Below, piece after piece: positions 14,747 to 30,621 of a stretch of DNA of 40,418 nt. Position numbers and translations under genes: made by a program. This DNA comes from Leptolyngbya sp. Lineage in GTDB: Bacteria; Cyanobacteriota; Cyanobacteriia; Leptolyngbyales; Leptolyngbyaceae. Where the stretch lies: positions 1-40,418 of the forward strand of contig QBMH01000015.1 of NCBI GenBank assembly GCA_003249025.1, written 5' to 3'. Within the stretch, counting starts at the first letter, position 1. Each line of letters starts with the position of its first letter. The notes under the pieces were generated by a model. It worked only from the letters and a program-made list of their open reading frames with translations. It was not told the DNA's origin and searched no databases.

Positions 14747-15162
14747 GGAAACACCTAAGAATTAAGGAAGCGGTGCATTGAAGCGATCGGGAAACACTCT
14801 TTATAAAAAGCCTAAAACGTTTTAGCCATGACTCGTCTGGTTTTCATGAACGAAAAATCAAAACTTCTTTTGTTCAGTTTCAGCAACTTTTGACTTTCAT
14901 CCTTCAAAACTTTACTTAACATACCGTAGTCTAGTTAGACATTTATAACGGAATGATCGAAATATCAAAAGCTAGCGTTGTAAAACAAACCGCTTATCTG
15001 AACCTTTTAGTGAGTCGATGCCATTCGTTGCCCATCGCATGACTTTTCATCATCTTTGCGCTTTTCGAGTATAAGGAAGCCAGGTTTGATATGGTTGTAT
15101 AACTCAGGGCATTCCTGTGGGACATAACAAGCGTTGAGTTGTTTAGTGATAAATTTCATTCC
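14747..15162. other. Intergenic region between the PAS sensor and minD
   Basis: This 416-base divergent spacer is AT-rich and holds no convincing gene; the longest ATG frame is 28 codons with poor composition. It contains a perfect 14-base palindrome CTAAAACGTTTTAG at 14812-14825 upstream of the sensor gene, a possible operator. The minD promoter should lie near 15060-15110 (TGTATAAC at about 15094) but I cannot assign it firmly. No minC is present. Confidence 0.5.
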
Positions 15163-15969
15163 ATGAGTCGCGTTATTGTAGTCACCTCTGGCAAGGGTGG
15201 TGTGGGCAAGACTACCACTACTGCCAATTTGGGTATGGCGTTGGCAAAGCGGGGTCGCAAGGTGATTGTGATCGATGCAGATTTTGGGTTGCGAAATCTT
15301 GACCTGCTGTTAGGTTTAGAAAATCGAGTTGTGTATACCGCTGTAGATGTGTTGGCGGGGCAGTGCCGTTTAGAGCAAGCGTTGGTCAAAGATAAGCGCT
15401 ATCCGAATTTGATGCTGTTGCCAGCGGCGCAAAACCGGACGAAGGATGCCGTTAAGCCAGATCAAATGAAACAGTTGGTGAATGCGCTGACGAAAGCATT
15501 TAACTATGTGCTGGTGGATTGTCCGGCGGGAATTGAGATGGGGTTTCAGAATGCGATCGTGGCAGCCAAAGAAGCCTTGATCGTGACCACGCCCGAAATT
15601 GCAGCAGTGCGGGATGCCGATCGCGTGATTGGGCTACTTGAAGCCAACAACATTAAACAAGTGCGCTTGATCATTAATCGGCTTCGTCCTGCCATGGTGC
15701 AGGCAAACGACATGATGAGCGTGGCAGATGTGCAAGAAATTTTGGCAGTACCCTTAATTGGGGTGGTTCCCGATGATGAGCGCGTCATTGTATCTACTAA
15801 TAAAGGCGAACCGCTTGTATTGTCAGAAACCCCATCTCTAGCAGGAACCGCCTTCGACAACATCGCCCGCAGACTAGAAGGTGAAACCGTTGATTTTTTA
15901 GATCTAACCGTGCCAAATGATGGATTGATCTCGCGTCTTCGCAAGATGTTTTCGACCAAGCTTTTCTAA
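15163..15969 (+). CDS. minD: Septum site-determining ATPase MinD
   Basis: MinD is the membrane-bound ATPase that, with MinC and MinE, keeps the division ring at mid-cell. The deviant Walker A motif GKGGVGKTT is at residues 10-18, followed by VIDADFGLRNLDLLLGLENR and the VDCPAGIE segment. The C-terminal amphipathic membrane-targeting helix ends the protein (LISRLRKMFSTKLF). I place the start at the ATG at 15163 (MSRVIVVTS), giving 268 residues as usual for the family; a TTG at 15139 extends the frame by eight unconserved codons. It is followed 30 bases later by minE. minC is usually just upstream in cyanobacteria but is not here. Confidence 0.97.
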   Translation: MSRVIVVTSGKGGVGKTTTTANLGMALAKRGRKVIVIDADFGLRNLDLLLGLENRVVYTAVDVLAGQCRLEQALVKDKRYPNLMLLPAAQNRTKDAVKPDQMKQLVNALTKAFNYVLVDCPAGIEMGFQNAIVAAKEALIVTTPEIAAVRDADRVIGLLEANNIKQVRLIINRLRPAMVQANDMMSVADVQEILAVPLIGVVPDDERVIVSTNKGEPLVLSETPSLAGTAFDNIARRLEGETVDFLDLTVPNDGLISRLRKMFSTKLF

Positions 15970-15999
15970 AGTCTTCCCCCTACTTTACCCGCCTGCTTC

Positions 16000-16485
16000 A
16001 TGTTATTTGAACTGATCGAACGTTTCTTTGCTCGCCCAACCAACAGTCGTCATGACGTGAAGAACCGATTGAGATTGGTTTTGGCACACGATCGCGCTGA
16101 TTTGCCGCCTCACATGATCGAATCCATGCGAAAAGAGATTCTAGAAGTGGTTGCCCGTTACGTCGAGCTAGACACCGATAGTATGGAATTTGCTCTGGAA
16201 AGCAACCAGCGATCGACTGCCCTGATCGCCAACTTGCCCATCCGGCGCGTGATCTCCTCCACAGAGATCGATCGCCCCGAAACCGCAGAGATCGCCATCC
16301 CAGAAGTGACCTTAACCGAATCGGGCGACCCGATCGCCACATCCACTGTTGACACTGCGTTAGCAGATGCATCGTCTAATACGGCTATTTTGCCTGAAAT
16401 CTCCCCTGATACTCCCGTAGAAGTGGCAGATCTCGAATTTTCCCCTACACCCACCGAACCCGCCAAACCAGAATCGGTTGCTTAA
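16000..16485 (+). CDS. minE: Cell division topological specificity factor MinE with long C-terminal extension
   Basis: MinE stimulates MinD ATPase and drives Min oscillation. Residues 1-84 are a normal MinE: an N-terminal amphipathic helix ([13 protein letters not shown]), the MinD-binding segment ([20 protein letters not shown]) and the dimerisation domain ([17 protein letters not shown]...). Residues 85-161 form an extra tail rich in E, T, P, S and A with few basic residues, most likely disordered. Typical MinE proteins are about 85-100 residues, so the tail nearly doubles the protein. It sits 30 bases after minD and 21 before aroE, so all three may be co-transcribed. Confidence 0.95.
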
Positions 16486-27206: not shown

Positions 27207-28310
27207 TTACGACTTACCCAGCTTGGATTGAATTTGGTCAAACAAGGCTCCATCGGAAAAGAACTGCTTCTGAACCTTGCCCCAGCCACCATATTCGTCA
27301 ACGGTCGCAAGCTTTTTAACGGGTGGAAACTGAGTTGCCAACGTTTTTTCGTTCGTCTTGGCATAGTCACCAACAGGACGAAATCCGAGCTTGACGAATT
27401 CCGCCTGAGCTTCTGGGGTAAACAAGAATTTGGCAAAGGCTTCAGCGACTTCGCGAGTCCCGTGCTTGTCCACATTTTGATCCACTACGGCAGCCGGGGT
27501 ATCGATTGAAATATTAACTTCGGGCACCACGAAATCGATCTTTTGTCCTTTTTGCTTCGCCAAAATCACTTCATTTTCATAGTTAATCAGGGCATCCCCT
27601 TGTCCCTGCTTGGCAAAGACATCCGTAGCTTCCCGCGCATCTTTTGCCAGAATTGCCACATTCTTAAAGGCTTGGGTAACAAATTCGGTTGCCTTTGCCT
27701 CATCTCCTCCATTTTTCAGGGCATAATCCCACAAAACTAGGAAGTTCCAACGAGCGCCCCCAGAGGTTTTTGGGTTTGCGGTCACCCATTTCACGCCATC
27801 GCGGGTTAAGTCCCCAAAGGTTTTGATATTTTTGGGGTTGCCCTCACGGGTGATCACTGCGGCAACGGATTTTGCCACGATGCCATTATTCGGCAGTGTT
27901 TTATTCCAATCTTCGTTTACGACTTTGGCTTCAACGAGTTTTTCCACGTCGGCTCCCAGCGCCAGGTGAACCACATCCGCTTCCAGTCCATCAATGATGG
28001 CGCGAGTTTGGGAACCCGACCCACCATAGCTTTGCTTAAAGGTGACGGTTTGCCCTTTTTCTTTTTGCCACTTTTCCTGAAACAGGGTGATGATGGCATC
28101 GTGAGCGGCTTTGGGCACGGCGTAGGCGACAAGGTTGATTTCAACATCCTTTTTGGGGTCGGCAGTAGGGCTGGCACCGCCCGTCGTGCTGGTATTGGTG
28201 GAGCCTCCTGAACAAGCAGCGATCGCCACGCTTAAACCAATTCCAACTAAAAACAAGGAGATAGCGCGATTGAATGACTTAAATCGCCAGCGAGTCACTA
28301 TCCGCTGCAT
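27207..28310 (-). CDS. sbpA: Sulfate ABC transporter substrate-binding lipoprotein
   Basis: The protein binds sulfate (or thiosulfate) outside the membrane for a CysTWA-type importer. From the ATG at 28310 (GGGGAAGG upstream) it has a basic signal peptide with lipobox VAIAAC (C33), then the family pattern: INLVAYAVPKAAHDAII, TFKQSYGGSGSQTRAIIDGL, ADVVHLALGADVEKL, NPKTSGGARWNFL and SIDTPAAVVD. Frames extend upstream to ATGs at 28352 and 28361 and to 28466, so the exact start is uncertain; the 28310 start gives the most typical signal peptide. The transporter's membrane and ATPase genes are not in the window. It is convergent with the secreted DUF11-like protein. Confidence 0.92.
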   Translation of the reverse strand: MQRIVTRWRFKSFNRAISLFLVGIGLSVAIAACSGGSTNTSTTGGASPTADPKKDVEINLVAYAVPKAAHDAIITLFQEKWQKEKGQTVTFKQSYGGSGSQTRAIIDGLEADVVHLALGADVEKLVEAKVVNEDWNKTLPNNGIVAKSVAAVITREGNPKNIKTFGDLTRDGVKWVTANPKTSGGARWNFLVLWDYALKNGGDEAKATEFVTQAFKNVAILAKDAREATDVFAKQGQGDALINYENEVILAKQKGQKIDFVVPEVNISIDTPAAVVDQNVDKHGTREVAEAFAKFLFTPEAQAEFVKLGFRPVGDYAKTNEKTLATQFPPVKKLATVDEYGGWGKVQKQFFSDGALFDQIQSKLGKS

Positions 28311-28670
28311 CCATCCTTCCCCAAGACTCAAAAACCCCTGTCGCTGTTTCATTACTGGCATTTCCTTCCCATACAAAGCGAACTCATGATCACCGATTGT
28401 TCTGTGAAAAACCGATGATCGAAACTCGATTTTACAGAGCAGAGAGTTTAAATGCAAGAAGAACACCGATATTCTTATCGGAAAATGAGAGATTAAAGAT
28501 AGGCTCTAAGAGTCATTTAACCAGTCAATTTTAGGGTTGACATCTAGAGAGAGGTTTAATATAGTTCGAGTGTACTAATTGGGCGAATTCAGGCGCAATT
28601 GGGGACAACGATTTAATACCTATCTTGATGCATAACTTGCAATCAGATGTAACCCATTGGGAGATTCACC
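28311..28670. other. Divergent spacer between sbpA and the ParM-like gene
   Basis: This 360-base stretch holds alternative sbpA starts (28352, 28361) in its left part and a near-consensus promoter for the rightward gene (28537-28565). I see no additional gene. Confidence 0.5.
28537..28565 (+). promoter_or_regulatory. Near-consensus sigma-70 promoter of the ParM-like gene
   Basis: TTGACA (28537-28542) and TATAGT (28560-28565) are separated by exactly 17 bases, about 105 bases before the ParM-like start. It matches the housekeeping consensus in 11 of 12 positions. Confidence 0.6.
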
Positions 28671-29699
28671 ATGACCGCCACAGAAACCCGTCGAACGAAA
28701 GCCACCATCAAAGAGCCTGCGCCGCCCAATCTATCAACTCGTACTCTGGCGTTAGATGCTGGCAACTATGATCTGAAGTTTTGGGATGGTCATATCCACC
28801 CTCGTGCTATTCGATCCATTCGCTATCAGTTGCCCCAAGGTCGAGATGCCGTTCGCTACTTGGATACTTCCCCTTTAATTGAACTGGCTGATGCCACCCG
28901 CTATCACTTTGGCACTCAGGCATATAAGTATCGTCGCCAGCAGCAAACCGTGATTGAAAACAAGGTAGAACTGGCGCGGCTGCATCTTTACGCCTGTCTT
29001 GAGCCTTGGGATGGCAACAGTGAGTTTTCATTAAACTTGCATGTTTCCACGCCAGAACCCGATCGCACTGAGCAAGCGTTGCGATCGCAACTCATGGGCA
29101 TTCACGAATTTAAGCGGAACGGCATTCCGTTTCGGGTGACAGTCGATCGCGTTAGCGTTGAGCGCGAAGGCATGGGAGCCTACTGTTACGCGCAGCGGCT
29201 AGGGCTAATTCCTGATACTGGCTACACCATCGTGATTGATATTGGCGGCGGCACCTGGCTGACTCGGCTGGTGGATGCGGAAGGCGATGTGATTAATGAA
29301 AATGTGATGGATCGGGGCGGCACCTACGAACTGGCAACCTCCATTAGTTTTGATAAACGCCTTGCGGATGCCTTAGGCACCACCGCCGACCCCGGCATTG
29401 TCATGGATGGATTCAAATCGGCACATGCCTACGCCGATACGGGTTTATCCTGGTCACCTTGGCTAGAAGAATATCTCGATCCCTGGTTTCGGGGCATTTT
29501 TCAAACGGTGAAGGCACAATATACGCCTTATATGTCGCGGGTGACGCGGTTTTTGGTGACGGGCGGCGGGTCGCACCTAATCACTGAGCGACTGGCAGGA
29601 CGCAAGCTGTTTGCCATGATTCCCGATCCTCAATTTGCCAATGTGCGCGGTTTGTATCCACTTCCAGAGGGCTTACAGCTATGTATGACAACAAGATAA
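28671..29699 (+). CDS. ParM/StbA-family actin-like ATPase
   Basis: The 342-residue protein has the actin/Hsp70 ATPase motifs: phosphate-1 LALDAGNYDLKFW (about 26-38), phosphate-2 VIDIGGGTW (D190-GGG at 192-194) and the adenosine motif FLVTGGGSHLI (about 302-312). ParM proteins polymerise to push apart plasmid copies. On a chromosome their relatives have uncertain roles. The first 22 residues are a basic, proline-rich tail not needed for the fold. The ATG at 28671 follows GGGAG. The stop overlaps the next small gene by 19 bases, so the two look like a ParM/ParR-type pair. Confidence 0.82.
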   Translation: MTATETRRTKATIKEPAPPNLSTRTLALDAGNYDLKFWDGHIHPRAIRSIRYQLPQGRDAVRYLDTSPLIELADATRYHFGTQAYKYRRQQQTVIENKVELARLHLYACLEPWDGNSEFSLNLHVSTPEPDRTEQALRSQLMGIHEFKRNGIPFRVTVDRVSVEREGMGAYCYAQRLGLIPDTGYTIVIDIGGGTWLTRLVDAEGDVINENVMDRGGTYELATSISFDKRLADALGTTADPGIVMDGFKSAHAYADTGLSWSPWLEEYLDPWFRGIFQTVKAQYTPYMSRVTRFLVTGGGSHLITERLAGRKLFAMIPDPQFANVRGLYPLPEGLQLCMTTR

Positions 29700-29929
29700 G
29701 ACTCAGCCAGGATGTGCTGGAAAAGGCAGAAGTCATCGCCCAAGAATGGGGGCTAAAAAACTCACGGGCAGCGGTTGAGGCGGTGTTTCGTCGCTATGCT
29801 GATGAATATTTGGGACGACGGACACACACAGAGCAAACTGCCTCTGGTGGGGCGATCGCCTCTACAATCTCGCCATCCTCTGCCGCTTGCGATGCCCTAA
29901 ACGAACTGGATGACCTCCTGGGATTGTAA
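29681..29929 (+). CDS. Small ParR/CopG-like partner of the ParM-like ATPase
   Basis: The 82-residue protein starts MYDNKIRLSQDVLEKAEVIA, a short strand plus helix, followed by WGLKNSRAAVEAVFRRYADEYL; this resembles a ribbon-helix-helix DNA-binding domain. The C-terminal part is Ser/Thr/Ala-rich and ends in an acidic amphipathic ALNELDDLLGL helix. ParR adaptors contact ParM through a C-terminal tail, and the acidic end would fit that role. It overlaps the ParM-like gene by 19 bases. The DNA site (repeats) it might bind was not found. Confidence 0.6.
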   Translation: MYDNKIRLSQDVLEKAEVIAQEWGLKNSRAAVEAVFRRYADEYLGRRTHTEQTASGGAIASTISPSSAACDALNELDDLLGL

Positions 29930-29962: not shown

Positions 29963-30202
29963 TCAAACTTTGGGCACCAAAGCAGACGTTATTTGACCCA
30001 TTTCTACAGTGACACTATCAAAGCGATCGTCTCCAGGATGGTAGGAGAGAATTTCTAGCCCAATCGGTTCACTGGTTCTGGAATCTTTAATCAAAATTAC
30101 CCCATCTCCCAGTTCAGTACTGATTTGTTCTTTCCGAGGAGTTTGCCAGAACACCGTTAATAACTCTGTTTCTGGTTCATAGAAGATTTTTACCTGTGCC
30201 AT
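29963..30202 (-). CDS. DUF2283-family protein, putative antitoxin-like partner
   Basis: The 79-residue protein (MAQVKIFYEPETELLTVFWQ..., with EPIGLEILSYHPGDD) matches the DUF2283 pattern, a short beta-rich domain often encoded next to toxin-like or DUF4258-like genes. It overlaps the upstream 30190-30492 gene by 13 bases, so the two are translationally linked. An antitoxin role is suggested by that arrangement only. ATG start at 30202. Confidence 0.7.
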   Translation of the reverse strand: MAQVKIFYEPETELLTVFWQTPRKEQISTELGDGVILIKDSRTSEPIGLEILSYHPGDDRFDSVTVEMGQITSALVPKV

Positions 30203-30492
30203 AGTGCTTCACCTTCCTTAATTGCATCAGTCTGGTAACTCGTAATCAAGAATCCATCTCCATTTAAGCGTCGAGCTACTGCTACAACCCATCGGCTTTC
30301 GTTTCGCGCCAAGTAGAACAGCAATACGTCTTTATCTCGGCTGCTGCGACGAATTTCATCGGGTGTAGCGAGGGCTTGTTGAACTACCTCTTCCAGCATT
30401 TCGAGATCAGGATGCTTGACGATTAACCGTTGCCAGTAGCTTTCAGAAGTTCTGACGGTAAATTCAAGTGGTGTAAGGATTTCAAACTTCAC
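30190..30492 (-). CDS. Small BECR/RelE-like toxin-type protein
   Basis: The product of about 100 residues contains SYWQRLIVKHPDLEMLEEVV, TPDEIRRSSRDKDVLLFYLA and WVVAVARRLNGDGFLITSYQTDAIKEGE. The spacing of the basic and aromatic residues resembles the BECR fold (RelE/barnase/colicin-like) and the phage-type PBECR domains. GTG start at 30492 with GGGGAGGA upstream; a TTG at 30495 is the only longer option. Its start overlaps a tiny upstream frame by GTGA, and its end overlaps the DUF2283 gene. A ribonuclease activity is possible but not shown. What else it could be: a DUF4258-like non-toxic protein. Confidence 0.6.
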   Translation of the reverse strand: MKFEILTPLEFTVRTSESYWQRLIVKHPDLEMLEEVVQQALATPDEIRRSSRDKDVLLFYLARNESRWVVAVARRLNGDGFLITSYQTDAIKEGEALWHR

Positions 30493-30621
30493 CAATCCTC
30501 CCCCTCTCCTGCCAGTTTCAATTGTTCATTTTCCACTTTTAATTGCAACGCCTTGTACTCCTGCTGCCAAGGGAATGCCTAACCCGATCGCCAGTGCCAA
30601 AGCCTGCTGAAAATATGCCAC
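30489..30621 (-). pseudogene. Tiny membrane/coiled-coil ORF, apparently frameshifted
   Basis: A GTG at 30621 begins VAYFQQALALAIGLGIPLA, a hydrophobic helix. In another frame, after the break, QQEYKALQLKVENEQLKLAG runs to a TGA that overlaps the start of the toxin-like gene (GTGA). Joined by a one- or two-base shift near 30563-30575 they would make a 40-45-residue helix plus charged helix. The 4-base stop/start overlap with the next gene suggests a real coding end. Confidence is low because the fragment is short. Confidence 0.3.

Follow-up and report, generated by a model that had tools for sequence, protein, structure and literature searches.

A chromosomal ParM-type actin gene pair of Leptolyngbya-type cyanobacteria with a conserved palindrome on its promoter

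Does a ParM-like actin gene with a small partner, encoded in the draft genome of a Leptolyngbya species, represent a partition system captured from a plasmid, or an actin that has taken on another role in the cell? A first-pass annotation had put forward both readings for the pair, which lies in the window, the whole 40,418-nt stretch of contig QBMH01000015.1 analysed here. There are precedents for such actins on chromosomes. According to one report, FcmB and FcmC of Nostoc punctiforme form a chromosomal ParM-derived actin system needed for rod shape, which is lost when either FcmB or FcmC is deleted, and FcmB is held to stem from a plasmid partition system (PMC12645912). CorM and CorR of Anabaena sp. 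PCC 7120 are represented in the PDB by entry 9rmi, and genome-encoded cParMs are known from Desulfitobacterium and Clostridium (PMC12270681). Like FcmB/FcmC and CorM/CorR, the window pair belongs to filamentous cyanobacteria and joins a chromosomal ParM-derived actin to a small partner encoded downstream of it. For the comparisons below, we take FcmB and CorM to be one family. Among the titles and abstracts listed in a search of the open literature, with bioRxiv and most subscription papers outside its scope, none dealt with the family of the window pair, which the FcmB authors may have met already.

The gene pair and its neighbourhood

The pair consists of two open reading frames on the forward strand, one of 342 codons for the actin-like protein (28671-29699) and one of 82 codons for its partner (29681-29929), and the 19-nt overlap that had been reported between them (29681-29699) is present. 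The same offset of -19 is found in 46 of 59 distinct loci, with -28 in eight and -25, 2, 13, 24, and 184 in one each. A partner ORF was found at 78 of 79 loci, several of which repeat one genome, and the only locus without a partner (L050) stops 105 nt into the actin gene.

The window contig (40 kb) is part of a draft assembly of 5.46 Mb in 407 contigs. Upstream of the pair, on the reverse strand at 27207-28466, is a divergent gene for a solute-binding protein (SBP_bac_11, 9.6e-38) that shares its intergenic region with the actin promoter. Downstream, also on the reverse strand at 29963-30495, two small overlapping ORFs converge on the pair; neither has a Pfam match at E 0.001, and by eye only they resemble a toxin-antitoxin-type pair. 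Across the loci, with the pair itself and overlapping frames set aside, the most frequent neighbour family is one that we take to be glgC-like (15 of 47 loci). The same contig also carries, at 15139-16485, adjoining genes for a MinD/ParA-type ATPase and MinE (MinE Pfam 7.7e-23), and a comparison of the window MinD with the actin found nothing.

A ParM-type actin and a putative DNA-binding partner

The motifs DAGNYDLKF, DIGGGTW, and VTGGGSH, which had been read as ParM-like, are intact and largely invariant in 39 aligned orthologues, where A27, L28, D29, G31, N32, Y33, D34, L35, K36, and F37, D190, I191, G192, G193, G194, T195, and W196, and V296, T297, G298, and G299 are near-invariant. The actin-like protein matched PHROG 691 ("partition protein", phrog_691) at 3e-21, and its matches to curated ParM-type families fell under their cut-offs: in Pfam, ALP_N at 24 bits (4.8e-5; limit 26.3), MreB-like_C at 21.5 (27.8), and ParM_N at 14.1 (27.4), and in NCBIfam, NF010498 at 19.6 bits (cut-off 417). 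The AlphaFold2 model with a mean pLDDT of 71.6 (the other four of five models had 54.5-62.9) matched CorM best (Z 24.8, 3.0 A over 277 residues), tied with Ta0583 (Z 24.2), as rows no more than 1 Z apart count as tied. It also matched Dh-cParM1 (Z 23.2) and the complex of ParM R1 with the C-terminal peptide of ParR (Z 22.6). Ta0583 is also the best PDB sequence match (1.6e-4), but it is an archaeal actin homologue with 20% identity over aligned residues; likewise, the cParMs are chromosome-encoded ParMs with a partner, but they come from other phyla and their sequence match is weak (profile E 0.32). On its motifs and structural matches, the window protein has the fold and nucleotide motifs of a ParM-type actin ATPase, and we infer that it would bind ATP and polymerise. 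Identity with MreB was considered and rejected, as the same genome encodes a separate MreB (G000:C222, 8.5e-147) and none of the seven MreB_Mbl matches is the window actin.

The small partner has a conserved N-terminal core (residues ~3-46), a variable linker, and a conserved C-terminal helix (68-80). D-N-K-x-R-[LI]-S occurs in 59 of 59 distinct partners, as does A-[LI]-x-x-L-[DE]-x-[LV]-L, the motif of the C-terminal helix, near the end and after the linker. The residue-level alignment had 31 rows and was made without the Nodosilinea-type partners, which have a longer N-terminus, while the motif count took all 59. In the divergent partner of genome G177, which lies outside the 59, R7 and S9 are kept and D3, N4, and K5 are not. 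The partner model places helices at 10-23, 28-50, and 68-80 with low confidence (mean pLDDT 60.8). Its structural matches were weak, with NikR, TacA/TacA2, CopG, and Arc all below Z 5 and HU and homeodomains near Z 3; we take NikR, TacA2, CopG, and Arc to be ribbon-helix-helix (RHH) proteins. Foldseek found no match to this model at E 0.001, Pfam gave no family and only chance-level matches, and PHROG 26198, a family of unknown function, was matched at 1.2e-4. A partner search of 386 phylum genomes, which scored no more than 13 first-look candidates in each and so probably missed some, returned at least six matches, each adjoining an actin gene by coordinates. Conservation and the low-confidence model support the RHH-like N-terminus proposed earlier as a predicted beta-alpha-alpha core, and what had been called an acidic tail is better described as a helix, conserved at the C-terminus. 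Going by this model, the partner looks like an RHH DNA binder that would dimerise and grip DNA with its N-terminal strand (K5, R7, S9), and the C-terminal helix may grip the filament end in the way that ParR does, capping it. Plasmid partners end in a similar C-terminal motif, for example ...ATNALDALLSA.

Distribution and replicon

A scan of genome contigs identified 49 loci with 68-94% identity to the window actin, one of them a contig-end fragment, and all were in records titled cyanobacteria. Leptolyngbya, Nodosilinea, Phormidesmis, Myxacorys, Stenomitos, and others are represented, together with one MAG titled Cyanothece, a unicellular genus; going by genus names, we presume that the Leptolyngbya-type carriers are mostly filamentous. 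Within the class, 86 of 291 genomes had any match to the actin at E 0.001 or better, and orthologues (at least 68% identity) were found in 61 of the 291 and in 32 of the 34 genomes of the window's own family, its own genome being counted in both cases. The two family genomes without an intact copy are G073, in which no orthologue was found, and G062. In the latter, an N-terminal piece of ~94 residues (G062:C56:6635-6913, query residues 19-112, 76% identity) is all that was seen of the orthologue, possibly a loss in progress.

Three genomes assembled as one contig of 5.3-6.4 Mb (G149, G135, and G190) carry the orthologue on that contig, and in Nodosilinea nodulosa PCC 7104 it lies on a contig of 6.1 Mb; most other orthologue-bearing assemblies are drafts. 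For the window, a 40-kb contig in a draft assembly, these relatives point to a chromosomal replicon. We rejected carriage by a low-copy plasmid, because closed assemblies place the orthologues on megabase contigs and no plasmid record exceeds 47% identity, the closest relative among 72,556 such records standing at 46.9%. The ParM/StbA of the Allocoleopsis franciscana plasmid pMIC7113.05 (46.9% identity over 93% of the actin) is also followed by a small gene with a similar C-terminal motif, but this plasmid has 38 kb, and the N-terminal sequence of its partner is different. Among viral contigs, two peptide patterns gave 40 pattern matches with no relative among them, and the phage relatives are two records, both Bacillus phage Goe8, at 26% identity. 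Genome G101 has several ParM-like copies (on C1, C24, C146, and C235) with 32-34% identity and in-frame TGA codons, and their sequences suggest that the copies have decayed or that they belong to a genetic element in which TGA is recoded.

The pair could in principle be a plasmid partition cassette that was inserted recently and is now decaying or parasitic. Such an origin would agree with the existence of plasmid relatives and with the more distant ParM-like copies in some carrier genomes, but both genes are strongly conserved, with 68-94% identity across families and a divergence that tracks that of RecA and LexA (see below), and none of the rows with at least 68% identity carries an internal stop among the matches listed. 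We therefore regard a recent cassette as very improbable.

Inheritance and probable independence from CorM

Pairwise distances between the actins were correlated with those between RecA proteins (r 0.74, n=15) and between LexA proteins (r 0.80, n=15), and none of 2000 permutations reached as high a value in either case; for comparison, RecA and LexA distances gave r 0.82 (n=16). G095 and G288, where the actin was not found by pattern, and G084, where RecA was not found, were left out of this comparison. The RecA+LexA tree of 14 genomes contains six of the 11 splits seen for the actin, and of the seven actin splits with support above 0.8, six are shared with support.

A tree of 46 proteins places the orthologues in one clade (100/98) and CorM in a separate one (100/100). 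The sister of the orthologue clade is the pMIC7113.05 plasmid ParM (92/85, not starred). The backbone is weak (47/72), with further plasmid-type ParMs on either side of it, and several plasmid branches are long. With a profile that was itself built from the orthologues, these scored 593-689 bits, their three nearest relatives 296-388, other plasmid-type ParMs 55-181, and CorM 7-16. Orthology with CorM was rejected on these scores and clades, despite the common actin fold. The separate clades and the profile scores support an independent capture, and from its sequence the family looks like a second chromosomal ParM capture, independent of CorM/FcmB. With its presence in one-contig genomes, its near-universal occurrence in the family, its correlation with RecA and LexA, and a plasmid protein as its nearest named relative from outside, the earlier idea of a partition system taken over by the host, or of an actin serving some other role, has held up. 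The reading that we favour, with moderate confidence, is that of a two-gene actin module derived from a plasmid ParM-ParR system, fixed in Leptolyngbya-type hosts independently of FcmBC/CorMR.

A rival reading holds that the window pair works like FcmBC/CorMR, with an actin of the cell cortex, linked to the membrane, that determines cell width and rod shape in filamentous cyanobacteria without FcmB, as a case of parallel evolution. By analogy, it would draw on the loss of rod shape in the Nostoc deletions and the plasmid-partition origin proposed for FcmB (PMC12645912), on CorM ranking first among the structural matches (level with Ta0583), and on the presence of MreB in the window's own genome. 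It also draws on the distribution of the two actins. When the CorM stretch was used as a query, 73 of 291 genomes had a match at E 1e-10, of which 72 were counted after G258 (a 30% match) was dropped. Among the 34 family genomes, CorM was matched in a single one, G177, which also has the window-type pair. Both actins occur together in seven of the 291 genomes where 15.1 would be expected (Fisher p 0.007), but the genomes are related, so that the test overstates the difference, and 165 of the 291 have neither. The partners also speak against this rival: CorR-type partners start with MFQWSKKVVKSVTF, a MFQWSKKVVK-type segment that is absent in all 59 distinct partners here, and the latter keep basic residues on the strand predicted to face DNA. 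We consider a cortical actin possible but doubtful.

A palindrome on the promoter

The TTGACA-N17-TATAGT promoter proposed for the pair was recovered on the forward strand at 28537-28565, with a -35 box at 28537-28542 and a -10 box at 28560-28565. It matches the sigma-70-type consensus at 11 of 12 bases, both boxes are kept in close relatives, and the distance to the ATG is 105 nt, as claimed. This is the sole match of a promoter scan over 2501 bases, but the scan alone is no evidence, because shuffles average 3.2 matches of its minimum score.

On the -10 box lies a palindrome, AGTTCGAGTGTACT (28563-28576), with nine of ten arm bases matching the consensus AGTAC-N4-GTACT, and it is the only match of at least nine in the window. 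A palindrome of this quality was found in 42 of 59 upstream regions of orthologues, compared with 11 of 1659 control windows from the same loci and ~0.9% of shuffles. At eight or more arm bases it is found in 58 of the 59, a figure that is partly due to chance, as shuffles give eight in 11%. The start of the palindrome forms the -10 box in 36 of 58 regions. This conserved palindrome on the promoter is newly seen here, and judging from its sequence and position it is probably an operator, for which the partner, LexA, or both are candidate binders. In the upstream regions of the orthologues at L042 and L029, two 14-bp boxes were seen by eye, mirrored and ~22-23 bp apart.

Behind the palindrome, comparison of upstream regions pointed to TTGGGC (28579-28584) and TTGGGGACAA (28599-28608), which lie 20 bp apart within 28579-28608 and, by sequence, may be the remnant of a parC or operator array. 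On either strand, TGGGGACAA occurs in 28 of 58 upstream regions. GNAC/GTNC tetramers occur at +10, +20, and +30 behind the palindrome in 18, 23, and 16 of 58 regions (mean over offsets 5%), and the 37 segments tested for self-similarity gave z 6.3 at lag 10 and z 5.7 at lag 20. The phasing and self-similarity figures are inflated by relatedness, the operator counts do not come from independent sequences, and the shuffles for the palindrome, TGGGGACAA, lag, and tetramer tests keep base composition only. The first-pass annotation had found no parC repeat array and had proposed a search for direct repeats. That search found exact repeats only as short two-copy pairs, in agreement with the earlier statement, which falls short in another respect, since a conserved palindrome and weak 10-bp phasing are seen across species.

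The relatives at L094 and L095 (45-47% identity, a homologous partner, and contigs of 24-30 kb) have no palindrome upstream, which is evidence against the palindrome being the ancestral ParR site. No palindrome with nine or more arm bases was found in the stretch fetched from pMIC7113.05.

LexA as a candidate regulator

If LexA were to repress the pair through the palindrome, the actin would belong to the SOS regulon, and a damage-induced filament might position damaged or replicating DNA. PMC3091678 gives 48 published sites and the cyanobacterial LexA consensus AGTACWNWTGTACT, which the palindromic box fits. With a matrix built from these sites, 43 of 58 upstream regions exceeded 13.06 bits, the 99th percentile of shuffles, the match being the palindrome itself in 38 of the 43; the best match lies elsewhere in 10 of the 58. 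Of the lexA-type genes of the family, at least 30 (from 33 genomes) were covered, and all of these have an upstream match of 10.9-17.0 bits. In 24 the score exceeds 11.87, the limit that shuffles gave for lexA in a separate scan, and the lexA of the window's own genome is preceded by GGTACAGTTGTATC. None of 12 CorM promoters has a palindrome/LexA-matrix match above the limit.

Several results run against this reading. The window's own box reaches 11.6 bits and so stays under the 13.06 limit. The inner bases A6 and T9 are present in 25 and 26 of 27 lexA boxes but in only 23 and 21 of 42 parM boxes (p 0.001 and 4e-5), a comparison that used 27 of 30 lexA boxes and left out three in another register, which also have A6 and T9. 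At least one of the two bases, in either orientation, is present in 34 of the 42 parM boxes, and the contrast with lexA is then weaker. In the window's own genome, RGTACNNNDGTWCB is not enriched (27 occurrences versus 53 for the reversed control). Among the upstream regions of recA, for which 29 of 30 genes were found, five of 29 pass their own limit, and that of the window's own genome does not. Two LexA-type sites in the window's own genome precede a hypothetical gene and a gene that we presume to be DUF2721-like. Membership in the SOS regulon is in our view possible but doubtful, and because the fit to LexA stands against the inner-base, own-genome, and recA results and those for L094 and L095, both LexA and the partner are kept as candidate binders.

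Proposed function and implications

For the captured two-gene module, we propose that the partner would probably anchor filaments to DNA, at its own operator and perhaps at chromosomal sites, and not directly to the membrane, because a strand like that of a DNA binder is kept and the N-terminal segment of CorR is absent. The palindrome on the -10 box would probably serve as this operator. The pair probably serves the cell and not a plasmid, because it has host-like inheritance and a conserved control site on its promoter. As to what that job may be, the partner's sequence favours an action on DNA and, by analogy, the FcmB precedent favours cell shape. A rather unlikely but more specific version would be a second domestication wired to DNA damage, in which LexA and/or the RHH partner would control the promoter through the palindrome and the DNA-bound partner would let the filaments act on the chromosome as a host-encoded, possibly damage-inducible actin spindle. 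The earlier picture of a capture or another cellular role is kept, and is amended by the palindrome upstream and by the existing records of FcmB/FcmC in the literature and of CorM/CorR in the PDB.

Our results suggest that chromosomes of cyanobacteria have taken up plasmid ParM systems on at least two occasions, with little overlap between the lineages concerned. This would make it possible to ask directly whether partition actins that were captured independently evolve towards a role in cell shape, or whether the window-type actin, which has a partner like a DNA binder and a promoter site similar to a LexA box, still moves DNA. One conserved promoter would also have two candidate regulators, LexA and the partner, which simple binding tests could tell apart.
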